Source: Bacillota bacterium
GTDB taxonomy: Bacteria > Acidobacteriota > Terriglobia > Acidiferrales > UBA7541
NCBI GenBank assembly: GCA_023511565.1
Contig: JAIMBE010000003.1
Coordinates: forward strand, 1 to 44,303
Length of the DNA stretch: 44,303 nt
Direction: 5' to 3'
Positions 1,704 to 20,485 of the stretch are shown here, one piece after another (the stretch's first letter is position 1; each line of letters starts with the position of its first letter). The notes beneath the pieces are model-generated. The model was not told where the DNA came from and did no database searches. It saw nothing but the letters and a program-made list of their open reading frames with translations. Made by a program: the position numbers and the translations under genes.

Positions 1704-3119
1704 TCAGCCGCTCTTCTGCACGGCGACTTCGAGCTGCACCGGCGTTTCGGTGGGGTACGTGCCGGTGTAGCACGCCGTACAGTAACAGCCGCGGTCGTCT
1801 TCGACGGCGCGGCGCAGGCTTTCCAGTGAGAGGTAACCAAGCGAATCCGCGCCGAGAAAATCCCGAATCTGTTCGACCGACTTTTGCGCAGCAATCAGTT
1901 CGGCACGCGTGGGCGTATCCACGCCATAGTAGCAGGGCGCGATCGTCGGTGGACAGGAGATGCGCACGTGGACTTCGATGGCGCCGGCTTCGCGCACCAT
2001 GCGGACAATCTTGCGACTCGTGGTGCCGCGCACAATCGAATCGTCCACCAGGACGACGCGCCTGCCCGCCAGCAGTCCCCGCACCGGGTTCAGCTTCAGC
2101 TTGACGCCGAAATCGCGGATCGCCTGCTCTGGCTGGATGAACGTGCGACCGATGTAGTGATTGCGGATCAGGCCCATGACGAACGGGATACCCGATTCAT
2201 GCGCATAGCCAATGGCCGCCGGAACACCCGAGTCCGGCACCGGCGTGACGAGATCGGCCTCGGCCGGATGCTCGCGGGCCAGCAGGCGGCCGAGCCTCTC
2301 CCGGCTGCTGTTCACTGACCGGCCGAAGACCATGCTGTCGGGCCGTGCGAAATAAACGTGTTCGAAGATGCAGTACTGGTGCGGCCGCTCCGGCGCGAAG
2401 CGCACCGATTCGACCCCTCCGCGCGAGATGCGCAGCAGTTCACCGGGTTCCACCTCGCGCACGTATTCGGCGTCCAACAGGTCAAACGCGCAGGTTTCGC
2501 TGGCCACCACCCAGGCCGCGCCCAGCCGGCCCAGATTCAGTGGCCGGAAGCCGCGCGGATCGCGAATCGCAAACAGCTCCTCCCGGGTGAGCAGCAGCAG
2601 CGAGTAGGCACCTTCGACCTGGTTCAACGCTTCGGCCACTGAGGCGGTCAGGTTCCGGCCGCCGGCGCGTGCAATCAAGTGGACGATCACTTCGGTGTCG
2701 GACGTGGTCTGGAAGATCGAGCCGCGGTGTTCCAACCGGCGGCGCCACTCGTTGGCGTTGGTCAGGTTGCCGTTGTGCGCCAACGCCAGCTGGCCTTTGT
2801 TGCAGTCAATCAGGATCGGCTGCGCGTTGACGAGCGCGGTGTCCCCGGCGGTGGAATACCGCGTGTGACCGATGGCCGCCGTGCCCGGCAGGGCTGCGAG
2901 CACCTCGGGAGTGAACACCTCCTCGACCAGCCCCATGCCTTTCCGTGCGCGCAGCTCGCTGCCGTCACTGCTGACGATGCCGGCCGATTCCTGCCCGCGA
3001 TGCTGCAAGGCATACAGACCCAGATAGGTCAGTTTGGCCGCTTCCGGATGGCCGTAGATGCCGAACACACCACAGTGGTCATGGAAGTGGTCATCGGCGA
3101 TGCGCAGGTTCGCGGTCAT
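1704..3119 (-). CDS. purF: Amidophosphoribosyltransferase
   Basis: PurF catalyses the committed step of purine synthesis, transferring glutamine amide nitrogen to PRPP to give phosphoribosylamine. The 471-residue protein has a short propeptide before Cys16 in HDHCGVFGIYG; that cysteine becomes the N-terminal nucleophile of the glutaminase domain after processing. The PRPP-binding motif VVLVDDSIVRGTTS lies in the C-terminal half. Cysteines in QYCIFEH, SCPPTIAPC and RGCYCTAC match the [4Fe-4S] ligands of the Bacillus-type enzyme, so this is the oxygen-sensitive, processed form rather than the E. coli type. The ATG at 3119 has a clear GGAGGA seven bases upstream. It follows purL with a 110-bp gap. 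Confidence 0.96.
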   Translation of the reverse strand: MTANLRIADDHFHDHCGVFGIYGHPEAAKLTYLGLYALQHRGQESAGIVSSDGSELRARKGMGLVEEVFTPEVLAALPGTAAIGHTRYSTAGDTALVNAQPILIDCNKGQLALAHNGNLTNANEWRRRLEHRGSIFQTTSDTEVIVHLIARAGGRNLTASVAEALNQVEGAYSLLLLTREELFAIRDPRGFRPLNLGRLGAAWVVASETCAFDLLDAEYVREVEPGELLRISRGGVESVRFAPERPHQYCIFEHVYFARPDSMVFGRSVNSSRERLGRLLAREHPAEADLVTPVPDSGVPAAIGYAHESGIPFVMGLIRNHYIGRTFIQPEQAIRDFGVKLKLNPVRGLLAGRRVVLVDDSIVRGTTSRKIVRMVREAGAIEVHVRISCPPTIAPCYYGVDTPTRAELIAAQKSVEQIRDFLGADSLGYLSLESLRRAVEDDRGCYCTACYTGTYPTETPVQLEVAVQKSG

Positions 3120-3229
3120 GCGTTTGTCCTCCGCGCCGGTCCGGCAGTTCCGGGAGCGGAGAGGGCGCCCTCCAGTCGTTCTCCGACATCATTTCTCGCC
3201 CACGGAGCGGTGAGCCGGGAAACGGGCCC

Positions 3230-5581
3230 CTAGCCGGTGTGCAGGGCGCGTTCAAACGCGGTCGACCAAAGCTCGTGCAGTGACACGACCGGCGCTTCCA
3301 GCACGGTGGTGCCGTTCCACTGTACGCGGAAGCTCGGACCGCCCGTCCGTCCCAACTCGTGCGCCGTAACTTGGTATTGTCGCGCAAGCGCGAGCACGCG
3401 GGCAAGTGCACCTTCGGCACAGGAGACCACCGCCCGCGCCCCGCGTTCGTTGAACAGCGCAAATTCGAGCGGGAGGCTCCGCGGGCCGGACAACTGAATC
3501 TCGGCCCCCAGGGGCGGCTCGCACGTACAACAGGATTCCGCCACGGCCACCGCCAGGCCCCCATCGCTGAGGTCGTGCGCCGAATGCAGCAGTCCTTCGC
3601 TGGCCAGCGCTACCAGCAAAGCGATGAGCCGTTTTTCTGCAGCCAGGTCCACCGGCGGGGGTGTGCCGGCGATGACGCCGGCCAGAGTCTTGGCGTAGAG
3701 CGAAGAGGAAAACTCGCGCTGCAGCGCTTCGGTGGAGATGGTGTGCAGAGGCGGCTGGCTGCCGCCGTCGAGCAACACAATCAGGTCGCCGGCCTGACGG
3801 AAACCGCTTGTCAGGGCATGCGCGGCGTTTTCGAGCAGGCCGAGTACGCCCAGGATCGGGGTGGGGTAGATTGGCCGGCCCAAGGTTTCGTTGTAGAAGC
3901 TGACGTTGCCACCCGTGATCGGCACGCCCAGGGCTTCACAGGCCACGGCGATACCCTCGACGGCGCGGGCAAACTGCCACATGATCTCCGGTTTTTCTGG
4001 GTTGCCGAAGTTCAGGCAGTTGGTGGCGGCGATCGGACGAGCGCCGGTGCAGGCTACGTTGCGGGCGGCTTCGGCCACGGCGTGCTGCGCGCCGACGAAC
4101 GGGTCGAGCCAGCACCAGCGGCCATTGCCATCGGTGGCCAGCGCCAGCGCGCGCGCTGTGCCCTTGATACGCACCACCGCGGCGTCTCCGGCTCCCGGGC
4201 CGACCAACGTGTTCGTGCGCACCATGTAGTCGTACTGTTCGAAAATCCAGCGCTTCGAAGCCACGGCCGGTGCGGCAAGCAGTCGACAGAAGTGTTCCGT
4301 CCACCGCGCCGGGTCTGTGTCTGCGTCGGTGGAAAAGGTCAACAGGGACTCGTCGGTGCGTGGCGGGGGTGGTTGCCGCAAGCGATCATACACGGGACTT
4401 TGCTCGGCCAGGGCTTTCGCGGGTACCTCGGCGACCACGCGGCCGCGGTCGAGCACGCGCAGCAGGCCGTCGTCGGTCACCCGTCCGATGACCACCGCAT
4501 CCAGGCCCCATTTGGCGAAGACGTCCAGCACCTGTTGTTCGCGTCCGGCTTCCGCCACCAGCAACATGCGCTCCTGCGATTCCGAAAGCATGATCTCGTA
4601 CGGGGTCATGCCGGCTTCGCGCTGGGGCACCCGCGCCAACTCGATTTCGATGCCGGCACCGCCCCGGGAGGCCATCTCGCAGGTGGAGCAGGTCAGGCCG
4701 GCGGCGCCCATGTCCTGGATGGCGACGATGGCGCCGGTGCGCATCGCTTCCAGACAGGCTTCCAGCAGCAGTTTTTCGAGGAACGGGTCGCCGACCTGCA
4801 CGTTGGGCCGCTTCGCCTGCGATTCTTCGCTGAACTCGGCGGAAGCCAGCAGCGAGGCGCCGTGGATGCCATCGCGGCCGGTCTTTGCGCCCACGTAGAT
4901 GACCGGGTTGCCGGCACCGCGGGCGCGGGCGAAGAACAGCTCATCGTGCCGCGCGATGCCCAGCGCGAGCACGTTGACAAGCGGGTTGGTGGAGTAACAC
5001 AGCTCGAACTGCACTTCCCCGCCGACGGTCGGCACACCGAAGCAGTTGCCGTAGAATGCGATGCCGCTAACGACGCCCTCCAGAATGTGCCGATTGCGGG
5101 CCAGTTCGTCCGGGGACGTATCCCTCTGCGGATTGCTTGCAGGGGAGGGCCGGCCACCGCCAACCGCACGGAGTGGGCCGAAGCGCAGCGAATCGAGCAC
5201 GGCGATGGGCCGCGCGCCCATCGTGAAGATGTCGCGCAAAATGCCGCCGACGCCGGTGGCGGCACCTTGAAACGGTTCGACGAAGCTCGGATGGTTGTGG
5301 GATTCGATCTTGAACACTGCCGCCAGCCCGTCCCCGATGTCCACCACGCCGGCGTTTTCCCCGGGACCCTGCAGCACATGGGGGCCGCGGGTGGGCAGGC
5401 GTCTCAGGTGGATCTTGCTGGACTTGTAGGAGCAGTGTTCACTCCACATCACTGAGAAAAGGCCCAGCTCGGTCAGGTTCGGGTCGCGGCCGAGGATCTG
5501 GCGGATGCGGGCGAACTCTTCCGCGCTCAGGCCGTGTTGTGCGGCGACGTCGGCGGTGATTTTGATTTCCGTGTCCAGCAT
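3230..5581 (-). CDS. purL: Phosphoribosylformylglycinamidine synthase, small-type subunit PurL
   Basis: This is the synthetase subunit of FGAM synthase, which converts FGAR to FGAM with ATP and ammonia supplied by PurQ. At 783 residues it is the short form found in PurL-PurS-PurQ complexes, not the approximately 1300-residue fused enzyme. Recognisable segments are the N-terminal [24 protein letters not shown] near residue 45, [18 protein letters not shown] near residue 90, [16 protein letters not shown] near residue 112, a central [16 protein letters not shown], and [12 protein letters not shown] in the second half. Start at ATG 5581, 42 bp after purQ, so the two are co-transcribed. The short form normally needs the small protein PurS, and no purS is visible in this cluster. 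Confidence 0.96.
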
Positions 5582-16017: not shown

Positions 16018-16293
16018 TCAGGTTCCGCTGGCCAGGTGCACCGTGTCCACGATGCCGACAATGGTGGCTTCCGTCGGCACTTCTTCAGGCAGGAAAGGAA
16101 AGCTGGCCTCACGGCCGCGGCACCAGTAGATTCGCTCGCCGGCGCCGGCGCCAACGGCGTCCACTGCCACGAGGGGGCGCCCCACGTCGCGGCCATGGCC
16201 ACCGACCGGCTGCACGAGCAGCAGCTTTTTGCCTTCGAGCGCTGGATCTTTTACGGTGGCAACTACGCTGCCCACCACGCGCCCCAATTGCAT
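16018..16293 (-). CDS. Bacterial microcompartment pentamer protein (BMC-P, EutN/CcmL family), copy 2
   Basis: BMC-P proteins cap the twelve vertices of microcompartment shells as pentamers. The 91-residue protein starts MQLGRVVGSVVATVKDPALE, then GKKLLLVQPVG, LVAVDAVGAGAGERIYW and ends with TEATIVGIVDTVHL, the normal EutN/CcmL order. It differs from copy 1 by a short extra loop (CRGREASFPFLPEEVP) where family members usually have a compact turn of the kind V-x-x-G-S-S-A-R. The ATG at 16293 fits the family start. It is the last gene of the minus-strand operon, 38 bp after copy 1. Confidence 0.9.
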   Translation of the reverse strand: MQLGRVVGSVVATVKDPALEGKKLLLVQPVGGHGRDVGRPLVAVDAVGAGAGERIYWCRGREASFPFLPEEVPTEATIVGIVDTVHLASGT

Positions 16294-16331
16294 CGACGAA
16301 CCCTCCGAACTCTGCCGGGCAGCCGCAGGCG

Positions 16332-16637
16332 CTATTTTCGTTTTGCCGCGGCCAGTTCCGCCTCGTGTGCCCCATCCAGCCGGACGCTGTCGACAACACC
16401 GACGATGGCGGCGTCGATGGGGCGGTCTTTGCACTCCGCGGCCATGCGCGCCGAACTGCCCTGCACGACAAGCACGGTTTCGCGAAAGCCAGCGTCCACG
16501 GTGTCGACGGCGACCAGATAGCCCGGCTCATCAGTGCCCTGTGGCGAGACCGGCTTGACGATCAGGAGCTTTTTTCCTTCCAGCCGCGGGTCTTTTCGCG
16601 TGGCCACCACCGTGCCGACAATGCGCGCCAGAATCAA
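16332..16637 (-). CDS. Bacterial microcompartment pentamer protein (BMC-P, EutN/CcmL family), copy 1
   Basis: The 101-residue protein reads MILARIVGTVVATRKDPRLE, GKKLLIVKPVSPQG, LVAVDTVDAGFRETVLVVQG, SSARMAAECKDRPIDAAIVG and VDSVRL. This is a textbook EutN/CcmL vertex protein with a short charged tail. The start is a TTG at 16637 with GGGGGA about six bases upstream; the open frame runs further upstream to 16778 but those residues overlap no family region. Two BMC-P paralogues side by side are usual in Planctomycete/Verrucomicrobia-type loci and suggest distinct vertex roles. Confidence 0.9.
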   Translation of the reverse strand: MILARIVGTVVATRKDPRLEGKKLLIVKPVSPQGTDEPGYLVAVDTVDAGFRETVLVVQGSSARMAAECKDRPIDAAIVGVVDSVRLDGAHEAELAAAKRK

Positions 16638-16725
16638 CTGTGTCCCCCGAAACGGAACCACAGAAACGAAGGAAGTACCGCGCCACCCGCAGGGCGGCGT
16701 TTCGAGCTGGCTCCGTGGGCGCTGC

Positions 16726-17025
16726 CTAGTGCGACGCCGCCGCCAGGGCCGACTTGCCGATTGGCAGCACGTCTTCAAGCGACGGGTGCGGACGCGGGAT
16801 CACGTGCACCGCAACCAGCTCGCCGACGCGCCGCGCTGCTGCGGCGCCGGCATCTGTGGCGGCCTTGACGGCGGCCACATCGCCGCGCACCAGAGCGGTC
16901 ACGTAGCCAGAGCCAATCTTCTCCCAGCCGACCAGCGTGACCTTGGCGGCTTTCACCATCGCGTCGGAGGCCTCAATCATGGCCACCAGTCCGCGGGTTT
17001 CAATCATGCCGAGTGCTTCACCCAT
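16726..17025 (-). CDS. Bacterial microcompartment hexamer shell protein (BMC-H, PduA/EutM/CcmK-like)
   Basis: This single-domain BMC protein of 99 residues tiles shell facets as hexamers. It starts [19 protein letters not shown], continues [20 protein letters not shown], where the IGSG loop lines the central pore in PduA-like proteins, then [20 protein letters not shown] and [19 protein letters not shown]. It is close in pattern to the canonical PduA/EutM type with no extra domain. The ATG at 17025 has GGAGGGGG six bases upstream. This is the only BMC-H in the window, and no tandem BMC-T gene is present. Confidence 0.95.
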
Positions 17026-17088
17026 GCCGTCCCCCTCCGAAATCCTGCTGCGCCGGGCACCGACCACCGGATGGCCGCGGCACCGGCG

Positions 17089-17889
17089 TCATCGGCCACT
17101 GCGACTCTTCACCGCTTCTTCGATCAGGGCCGCAAGTTCCTCGCGGGTCAGGATGACGCGCTCCGCCGCGAGCGATTCCGACGTCACGGGACATTCTGTG
17201 CCCGACGGCGCCGCCGTGGTCAGCCCGTACCGCGCTCGAGCCGCGAGCAATTTTTCCACATCCGTGCTGGAAAGCAAGACCTGTTTGCCGAGCAGCTCGG
17301 TGACCAGTGCGACGCGAGCGAAATGCTCGGTGGTCTCCATGCGAAAGAAGGCGCTGAGCAGGTCGGGGCCACAGGTGACCACACCGTGATTGGCCATCAG
17401 GATCGCGTCATAGCTGGCGACGTAAGGCTCGAGCGCCTCGGTCAACTCGGGCGTGCCTGGGGTGCCGTAGCGGGCCACCGGGATACAGCCCAGCGCCAGC
17501 ACAACCTCGCTGATCAACGCCTTGTTCAGGGGGATGCCAGCGGCGGCATAGCCGGTGGCCGTGGGCGGATGGGCGTGGAGAACGGCGTGGACGTCGGGCC
17601 GGCGCTGGTAGATGAGCAGGTGCATGGCCAGTTCGGAGGAGGGGTTGCGCCGTCCCGAGAGTTTGCGGCCCTTCATGTCGGTCACGACCAGATCCTCGGG
17701 CAGCATCATGCCCTTGCTGATGCCGGTCGGTGAGGTGAGGACACGCTGGGGATCCAGCCGCACGCTGATGTTGCCGTCGGTGGCGGCCACGAAACCGCGC
17801 TCGTGAATCCAGCGGCCCACCAGGCAGATGTCGCGCCGGTGCTCGTCTTCGGTTTTCAGGGCGCCAGGTTGGAGAATCTCGTGTGGCAT
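17089..17889 (-). CDS. Class II aldolase (fuculose-1-phosphate type) with C-terminal encapsulation-peptide-like helix
   Basis: Enzymes of this family split sugar phosphates such as L-fuculose-1-phosphate into DHAP and lactaldehyde using a metal. In this 266-residue protein Glu86 (in NPSSELAMH), His105 and His107 (in VLHAHPP) and His168 (in MANHGV) have exactly the 19-2-61 residue spacing of E. coli FucA Glu73, His92, His94 and His155. The catalytic part ends near residue 223. A Pro/Ser/Thr linker then leads to VILTREELAALIEEAVKSR at 246-264, an amphipathic helix of the kind that targets cargo into BMC shells. It lies 39 bp after glutamate dehydrogenase and 63 bp before BMC-H. GGAG stands eight bases before ATG 17889. 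The true substrate is unknown. Confidence 0.88.
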   Translation of the reverse strand: MPHEILQPGALKTEDEHRRDICLVGRWIHERGFVAATDGNISVRLDPQRVLTSPTGISKGMMLPEDLVVTDMKGRKLSGRRNPSSELAMHLLIYQRRPDVHAVLHAHPPTATGYAAAGIPLNKALISEVVLALGCIPVARYGTPGTPELTEALEPYVASYDAILMANHGVVTCGPDLLSAFFRMETTEHFARVALVTELLGKQVLLSSTDVEKLLAARARYGLTTAAPSGTECPVTSESLAAERVILTREELAALIEEAVKSRSGR

Positions 17890-17928: not shown

Positions 17929-19200
17929 CTAGGCGTAGATGCCGCGCAGTTTGAGCGCATAGGCCACGCGGTCAATCCCCAGCATGTAGGCGGCAATGCG
18001 GTTGTTCACCTTGTGCGTTTCCGAGTACCGCACCACCTCGTCAAAGGCATGCTCCATCACATCCTGCAACCGCTCGTTCACTTCGCTCTCGCGCCAGAAG
18101 AATCCCTGCCGGTCCTGCACCCACTCGAAGTAGCTGACGGTGACGCCGCCGGCATTGGCCAGGATATCCGGGATGACGAAAACGCCCTTCTCTTCGAGGA
18201 TCTCGTCGGCGGGCGCGGTGGTCGGGCCATTGGCGCCCTCACAGAGGATGCGGGCTTGGACGCGGTGCGCGTTCTGGCTGGTGAGCTGATTTTCCACCGC
18301 GGCCGGCAGCAGAATATCGCAGGGCTGAAAGAGAATCTCCTGCGGAGACATCTTCTCGCCCCCGCCGGGAAACTCCGGCAGCGGCTTGCGCTTGATGTGC
18401 ACCCAGTCGATCAGCGCCGGAATTTCAAACCCCTTTTCGTTGTACAGCCCGCCGTGCACATCGGCGACGCCCACAATCCGGTACCCCGCCTGATGCATCA
18501 ACAGCGCGGCCATCGAACCGACGTTGCCGAATCCCTGGACGATCACACGGCAGCCCTCGCGCTTCAGGCCCAGCCGCGCCAGCGCCCGATCGCAGACAAT
18601 CATGCAGCCGCGGCCGGTGGCTTCGCGACGACCGCGGGAGCCACCTAAATCGAGCGGCTTGCCGGTCACCACAGCAGTGGTCGTGCGCCGCATGTGCATC
18701 GAGTAGGTGTCCATCACCCAGGCCATGACCTGCTCATTCGTACCCAGGTCGGGCGCAGGGACGTCGCGCTCCGGCCCCAACCAATCCATCAGTTCGGCCG
18801 TGTAACGGCGCGTGATGCGCTCCAGTTCCCCCTGAGACAGTTTGGCCGGATCGCAGATGATTCCGCCCTTGGCACCGCCAAACGGGATGTTCACCACAGC
18901 ACATTTCCAGGTCATCCAGGCGGCCAGCGCGCGGATTTCGTCCAGCGAGACGTCGGGGGCATAGCGAATGCCGCCCTTGCCGGGACCGCGCACCAGCGAA
19001 TGCTGCACCCGGTAGCCGACGAACACCTCCAGCCGCCCGTCATCCATGCCCACCGGGATGTACACCGTGATTTCTTTGTCCGGGTATTTCAGGTAGCGGT
19101 ACAGGCCGTTCTCCAGCCCCAGCTTCTGCGCCGCCGCCTCAAAGCGCGCTTCAGCCGATTCATAGACGTTCAATTCATTCTTGACCGTGACACGAGTCAT
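17929..19200 (-). CDS. gdhA: Glu/Leu/Phe/Val dehydrogenase (glutamate dehydrogenase)
   Basis: This enzyme interconverts glutamate with 2-oxoglutarate and ammonia using NAD(P). The 423-residue protein has the glutamate-dehydrogenase marks [14 protein letters not shown] (Lys75), [18 protein letters not shown] (Lys99 and catalytic Lys111), [20 protein letters not shown], a Rossmann segment [14 protein letters not shown] near residue 220, and [14 protein letters not shown] near residue 355. Length and motifs fit the hexameric NAD-type (RocG/GudB) group. The ATG at 19200 has AAGGAG eight bases upstream. It is the first gene after the promoter at 19285-19313 and is followed after 39 bp by the aldolase, so it appears to be part of the BMC operon. 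Whether it is shell cargo is unknown; no added targeting helix is obvious. Confidence 0.92.
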
Positions 19201-19284
19201 CGCGGCGTCTCCTTCCAATCTCCGTTTCCACCGACACGACTCCCTCTCGGCGAAGCCACGCGCACAACCGAAATCGCGTCGGCC

Positions 19285-19313
19285 AGTATAAAGAGGGCCC
19301 GTGCCTGCTGCAA
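19285..19313 (-). promoter_or_regulatory. Sigma-70-type promoter of the glutamate dehydrogenase-BMC operon
   Basis: On the minus strand TTGCAG (19308-19313) and TATACT (19285-19290) are separated by exactly 17 bp. The expected start lies about 75-80 bases before the glutamate dehydrogenase ATG. This is the best -35/-10 pair in the window after the one before rpoD. No operator was recognised near it. Confidence 0.6.
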
Positions 19314-19456
19314 GCTGGGCCCCCGGAACCGTTTGAGGGGGGCCACCGCCGGCCGCCACGTGGTTCGGTGTTCCCGCCGCCCGGCTTGGCCGCAGAACTC
19401 CGTTCGAAAGATCGTGGATCGGACCACATTTCGTGGCGCGGTTGGGACGGTCGCGA

Positions 19457-20485
19457 TCAAGACCGCCTTGTGCGTCGGCGAAGGATGAACTCTTCGAGCA
19501 GCAAGCGGGTGAGCCGGGCGCTGTTGTGGCGCACGACGCTGTTTTCCTCGACCAGCTCGTCGGCAATCACGCCCACACCCAAGCGCTGCAGAGACTCGAG
19601 GTCGGCACGGACCGGCTCGGCACCCTGGGCGCGGTAGCGGCGGAGCAGGCGCGGAGAGATCGGCTGCCGGTTCACCACCACCCAGTCAAACAGCCGCCGC
19701 CGCGCATGCTCATAGATCGCCCGGATGTGATCCGCCACCGTGTACCCCTCCGATTCCCCAGGCTGGGTCATCAGGTTGGCGAGGTAGACGCGGGTGGCCC
19801 GCGACCGCGCGATGGCTTCCGCCACGCCGGCCACCAGCAGGTTGGGGATGATGCTGGTGTAGAGCGAGCCGGGCCCGACCAGAATCAGGTCGGCGGCGCG
19901 GATGGCTTCGAGCACCTCCGGCAGAGGCTTCGGCCGCCGCGGCACCAGGCGAACGCGCCGGATCCGTCGGCCCGAACGCGCAATGCGCGTCTCCCCGCGG
20001 ATCACTGAACCATCTTCCATCTCCGCCTCGAGTTCCACGTTGGCCGTGGTGGAAGGAAAAATCCGGCCGCGAATCGCCAGCACCTGTCCCGAGAGCCGCA
20101 CCGCCTCGGCAAAATCTCCGGTGACGCTGGCCATGGCGGTCAGGAACAGGTTGCCGAAACTGTGTCCGCGCAGGCCACTGCCGGCGGGGAAGCGGTACTG
20201 GAACAGACGGCTCAGCAGCGCTTCGTCTTTCGAAAGCGCGACCAGGCAGTTGCGGATGTCACCCGGTGGAAGGATGTCATAGGCGCGGCGCAACCGGCCC
20301 GAACTGCCCCCGTCATCGGTCACGGTGACCACCGCGGCCAGATCCCCGATCGGCAGCCGCACACGATCCTGCGGCCGTCGGGCCACGTGCTCCTTCAGCC
20401 CGTGCAGCAACGTGGAAAGCCCGGTGCCGCCCCCCACGGCAACGATGCGCACGGGCCGCGCCCCGATCTTGCTCGAGCTGTTCAC
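19457..20485 (-). CDS. yvcK: Gluconeogenesis factor YvcK/GlmR family protein
   Basis: YvcK/GlmR proteins resemble CofD but regulate carbon flow into cell-wall precursors; in Bacillus the protein binds UDP-GlcNAc and stimulates GlmS. The 342-residue protein has the nucleotide-sugar loop [15 protein letters not shown] at 17-31, [20 protein letters not shown] near 54-73, [25 protein letters not shown] near 108-119 and the late [15 protein letters not shown] segment, all diagnostic. The start is GTG 20483-20485; no Shine-Dalgarno is visible, so the exact start is uncertain by a few codons. It follows the TPR gene by 78 bp on the same strand. GlmU, which makes UDP-GlcNAc, is also in this window but 11 kb away. 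Confidence 0.92.

Follow-up and report, generated by a model that had tools for sequence, protein, structure and literature searches.

Does an encapsulation-peptide (EP)-like tail place its enzyme inside a microcompartment? The question is raised by a class II aldolase encoded in a 44,303-nucleotide stretch of acidobacterial DNA, hereafter the window. EP-like tails are commonly taken as evidence of microcompartment cargo, and an earlier note on this DNA read the C-terminal helix of the aldolase as direct support that the enzyme is luminal cargo of the shell encoded next to it. That reading did not hold. The same helix is kept in the aldolase of at least 55 genomes of the same family that have no convincing match to either BMC shell family, including 23 with a completeness of 95% or more, and it is therefore not direct evidence of cargo status. 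The helix shows EP type or ancestry, not the location of the aldolase inside a shell.

The window protein is a class II aldolase by fold and active site. PF00596 matches residues 20–195 (E = 1.8e-49, Pfam), and four residues identified by homology as the metal ligands and the catalytic acid (E86, H105, H107, and H168) are invariant in 57 relatives. The AlphaFold2 model aligns with solved FucA-like chains over ~205 residues (target TM-score 0.91; Foldseek 1e-19). Fold and conserved active site are common to the window aldolase, E. coli FucA, and B. thuringiensis 6btd/6btg (5-deoxyribose salvage), and 6btd is the nearest solved aldolase. FucA-type aldolases are tetramers, so each assembly would present four tails. 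None of the NCBIfam equivalog cut-offs was reached by the window aldolase. In view of 6btd and of the satellite aldehyde dehydrogenase (AldDH) of this genome, which is closest to acetylating acetaldehyde dehydrogenase, the substrate may be a 5-deoxypentulose phosphate instead of fuculose phosphate.

E. coli FucA (1fua, 215 aa) and 6btd/6btg end at ~215–222, and FucA-type PDB chains align with the window aldolase only up to residue ~222–225; the ~44 extra residues of the window aldolase, a linker and a helix, have no counterpart in these enzymes. The earlier note had placed a helix beyond the FucA-like domain, and this was confirmed: the domain runs to ~222 in a protein of 266 aa, and AlphaFold2 models the helix at a block pLDDT of 88 and the preceding linker at low confidence (blocks of 66–78). 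The helix starts at ~248–249 and not at 246 as proposed, and its amphipathicity over 246–264 was not borne out for the single sequence, since the Eisenberg moment of this span is not significant and is larger in 90% of shuffles. Amphipathicity of the window sequence is significant only for the core, residues 250–261 (p ~0.02), and that of the family column means is significant in shell-bearing genomes (p ~0.02). Positions 252, 255, 256, 259, and 260 are hydrophobic in 96–100% of shell-bearing sequences and, among shell-less sequences with the helix, in 98–100%. The family consensus, ELEALIDEAVR, resembles the EP of PduP. The linker described as Pro/Ser/Thr-rich is present but only loosely of that composition; its sequence and length differ freely from relative to relative, and it contains a conserved Cys-Pro (residues 233–234) that had gone unmentioned.

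None of 20 distant PF00596 paralogues, taken from the same genomes or from related ones, has the EP-like tail. Conserved hydrophobic positions, slow evolution, and tail-free distant paralogues together mark the helix as beyond chance. The tail does have the form of an EP, as was claimed, with a short terminal helix, one hydrophobic face conserved by position, a flexible linker, and a precedent in the ACI microcompartment type (PMC8217296), and with a weak single-sequence moment. The expectation that such a tail would be missing from aldolases outside BMC contexts held for the 20 distant paralogues but failed for the 55 shell-less orthologues.

The shell genes adjoin the aldolase as the earlier note had stated: directly downstream and on the same strand are a BMC-H gene and then two BMC-P genes (Table 1). 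The third BMC-P of this genome, a 2.6 Mb MAG, lies on contig C153 beside ruvB. AldDH is encoded with its own BMC-H on contig C32 and is likewise a satellite in shell-bearing relatives. With 599 bits it falls just short of the 620-bit cut-off of the acetylating acetaldehyde dehydrogenase model (NCBIfam), and it has a small C-terminal domain and an isolated helix (501–514) flanked by disordered stretches. The C-terminal region of AldDH includes long Ala/Pro-rich stretches; in relatives the isolated helix reads DRxxIARVVExxLAxxGIxRG, and the conserved end domain, FVSExDVRxAxxRxEKIxIGPKTIxTPSARDLG, has a predicted small beta-alpha fold. The window BMC-H carries AMVKAA and a second 10-residue segment, like the EP-binding groove segments of PduA; there AMVKSA and a second 10-residue segment build a groove, located between tessellating hexamers, to which EPs bind (PMC11157265). 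GDH serves as an orthology anchor and is probably not cargo. A second aldolase/BMC-H/BMC-P set, located by mraZ/rsmH/ftsI on another contig of the MAG (G000:C76, locus L014, 1–1407), was not counted as a paralogue; its neighbours and tail equal those of Bryobacteraceae locus L199, so it is probably Bryobacteraceae contamination.

Table 1. Features of the aldolase locus and its satellite (positions in the window unless a contig is given)
Feature	Position	Strand	Evidence or remark
Class II (FucA-like) aldolase gene, 266 aa	17089..17889	(-)	ORF, Pfam, structure comparison
C-terminal extension past the FucA-like fold, residues 223–266 plus stop	17089..17223	(-)	Structure alignment, AlphaFold2
EP-like helix, residues 249–265; hydrophobic face L252, L255, I256, A259, V260	17095..17145	(-)	AlphaFold2, conservation, dN/dS
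Cys233-Pro234 linker motif, tracks shell presence	17188..17193	(-)	Conservation across genomes and loci
BMC-H shell hexamer gene, likely start 17025	16726..17067	(-)	PF00936 8e-30; NCBIfam EutM 148 bits
BMC-P (EutN/CcmL) vertex gene 1	16332..16649	(-)	PF03319 1.2e-28
BMC-P (EutN/CcmL) vertex gene 2	16018..16320	(-)	PF03319 8.9e-28
Glu/Leu/Phe/Val dehydrogenase (GDH)	17929..19566	(-)	Adjacent to and syntenic with the aldolase in relatives with or without a shell
AldDH gene	L015 (G000:C32) 3083-4840	minus	

Shell genes were searched with PF00936 and PF03319 in whole-genome six-frame translations of 89 genomes of the window genome's family, the shell-less ones being mostly MAGs. The aldolase is present in 81 of the 89 (E <= 1e-45), BMC-H in 16 (a partial 17th match, in G102, sits at the cut-off), and full BMC-P in 13 (with a further two matches to weak fragments). 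All five core positions are hydrophobic in 54 of the 55 shell-less genomes that keep the helix; examples are VTLTRSELDALIDEAVRKDRTRR (G034) and VTLTRRELEALVEEAVRNDRARH (G015). The gene order GDH-aldolase-ruvA-ruvB is common to the loci checked, which identifies the shell-less aldolases as orthologues: shell-bearing genomes have GDH-ald-BMCH-EutNx3-ruvAB and shell-less genomes GDH-ald-ruvAB. A BMC-H and three BMC-P genes also lie between aldolase and ruvA at locus L177, from another family of the order, so that loss of the shell is the simpler direction. An apparent intermediate of this loss is G005 (locus L173), with GDH-ald-BMCH-ruvAB and no BMC-P between aldolase and ruvA; neither BMC-P nor AldDH was found in this 97% complete genome. 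Among the sampled genomes that lack shell genes, none gave a match to the satellite AldDH.

Each of the 27 shell-bearing genomes placed in the tree has the helix. It is lost or degenerate in shell-less g8 (three genomes), g12, and G106, so some lineages can do without its shell-independent function. At loci L200 and L201, which bear shell genes, the aldolase has an Ala/Pro-rich, KRRW-containing tail with no EP-like helix and with the Cys-Pro kept; the helix is thus not strictly required beside a shell. Comparison of tail and shell on independent pairs of the tree yielded few supported pairs, and support along the tree backbone is poor.

Selection on the helix was assessed by dN/dS from Nei-Gojobori counts made pair by pair and bootstrapped over columns, and the reading is drawn from g6 and g4, the two larger shell-less genera (g3 has few close pairs). 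Values for helix, catalytic domain, and linker are 0.16, 0.11, and 0.31 in g6 and 0.11, 0.16, and 0.45 in g4; intervals on dN/dS over 22 codons are wide. Mean identity in g4 is 74% for the helix, 75% for the catalytic domain, and 29% for the linker. Synonymous sites within both genera are highly diverged (pS ~0.56 even in closer pairs). Because its dN/dS is as low as that of the catalytic domain, the helix is maintained in g4 and g6 and not just inherited. Its loss or degeneration in g8 and g12, where the catalytic domain is still normally constrained (dN/dS 0.16), shows that constraint on the helix can be lifted.

Purifying selection on the helix after shell loss means that a shell-independent function must exist. 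On balance, we favour the reading that the tail is an EP-type self-associating helix that serves encapsulation in this genome and also a shell-independent function, probably self-assembly of the tetramer. In the window's genome, the linker and one-faced helix would most likely bring the tetrameric aldolase into an ACI-like microcompartment, with the helix bundling with like helices (its own and that of the satellite AldDH) and presumably docking in the groove between BMC-H hexamers. In relatives from which the shell genes and AldDH were deleted, the aldolase retains its helix under purifying selection, most likely because the tetramer self-assembles homotypically into larger complexes or condensates. 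The same self-association would be used for encapsulation where a shell is present and would be enough for a selected function where it is not. Metabolosome EPs self-associate by bundling with each other, and EPs fused to fluorescent reporters, a tetrameric one among them, partition cargo in shell-free cells (PMC12339742). When the tail was searched for in the sampled shell-less genomes, the aldolase alone matched strongly; internal matches were weak (E 0.003 or worse), and no other protein in these genomes had the same tail at a convincing E-value. The lack of a second tail-bearing protein there favours homotypic action.

We more tentatively consider that the shell-less relatives run a "naked metabolosome core," in which the helix would self-assemble the aldolase without a shell and the linker Cys-Pro would be the actual shell-specific signal. 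Of 27 shell-bearing genomes, 26 have Cys at column 233, nearly always with Pro directly after it, and the Cys is missing from 60 of 65 shell-less genomes, although many of these genomes are related and the counts are not independent tests. Scored separately by locus, on organisms largely overlapping the genome set, Cys-Pro (or Cys-Leu) occurs at all 37 loci that have BMC-H close by and at 2 of the 26 that do not. Exceptions to the match are g3, which lost the shell but kept the Cys, and G103, which kept the shell but lost the Cys. The Cys-Pro motif is a better and more specific shell marker than the helix. If the naked core is real, nature would here provide an example of enzyme condensation driven by EPs, one that has outlived its compartment and is selected independently of it.

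It is doubtful that the tail is instead a structural extension of this aldolase subfamily, stabilizing the tetramer or packing on its core, and never, or only secondarily, a targeting signal. Retention without a shell, a dN/dS equal to that of the catalytic domain, and the fair AlphaFold2 confidence of the helix are consistent with such a role, but the preceding linker varies freely, the catalytic domain of g8 and g12 stayed under normal constraint after the helix was lost, the helix occurs throughout the shell-bearing genomes of the tree, and its pattern matches that of described EPs. Recruitment of the helix to bind a different partner in shell-less genomes is unlikely. Selection on the helix where both shell and AldDH are gone agrees with a new partner, as does the near-fixed ending DEAVRKDRxRR in g6; a very similar ending, however, is already present in shell-bearing g5 and g2, and no second tail-bearing protein was found, though a partner need not carry the tail.

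A pure EP that persists in shell-less genomes as a vestige yet to decay is disfavoured and, in our judgement, very improbable. The synteny is more simply explained by an ancestor with a shell, and decay is visible in other shell-less lineages, but the helix dN/dS of 0.11–0.16 in g4 and g6 was reached despite highly diverged synonymous sites, and the adjacent linker did decay. That shells were simply missed, through incomplete assemblies or divergent shell proteins, is nearly refuted: most shell-less genomes are MAGs, but six-frame searches gave no convincing PF00936 or PF03319 match in 33 tail-carrying g6 genomes, the chance of assembly gaps hiding one locus in all 33 is ~1e-39 if the genomes are independent, many assemblies span the syntenic site and show it empty, and AldDH is missing as well.

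Acidobacterial BMC aldolases with an EP tail are a kind already described; what is new is the retention of the tail under purifying selection after shell loss. The open-access literature searched held nothing on point about EP-bearing enzymes in genomes without shells. This one family is a natural experiment, in which the shell is present, half lost (G005), gone with the tail kept, or gone with the tail lost. The series indicates that selection can act on an EP-type tail where no shell exists, and it opens the self-assembly role of EPs to direct tests in nature. It also offers the linker Cys-Pro as a stricter marker of encapsulation.

The window holds an ACI-like locus. The acidobacterial ACI type (Sutter et al. 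2021, PMC8217296) has a class II aldolase with a C-terminal EP, a BMC-P triplet, at least one BMC-H, and an AldDH in a satellite locus, and it is found mainly in Acidobacteriota subdivisions 4 and 6. The same parts were found here: a PF00596 aldolase with a C-terminal EP-like helix in the locus, one BMC-H, three BMC-P (contiguous in relatives, split over the window and C153 in this genome), and an AldDH with a further BMC-H on satellite contig C32. Because the ACI aldolase already has a C-terminal EP, an EP identity is expected for the tail of the window aldolase, which is likely an EP. Three differences stand out. A hydroxyacid dehydrogenase belongs to the ACI type, whereas none (PF00389/PF02826) was seen in the scan of window genes flanking the aldolase; the relatives of the window's genome are of Terriglobia/Acidiferrales type and not of subdivisions 4 and 6; and shell loss with tail retention, seen in the window's family, was not found in the ACI description (PMC8217296). 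PVM and GRM5 microcompartments also have a PF00596 signature enzyme inside the BMC (PMC8217296), but theirs are other locus types, and the likeness is by description only. With metabolosome EPs of the PduP, PduD, and PduL type, the tail of the window aldolase shares a terminal helix of 15–20 residues, a flexible linker, and a hydrophobic i, i+3, i+4, i+7, i+8 face; it differs in being C-terminal and in being kept under selection without shell genes.
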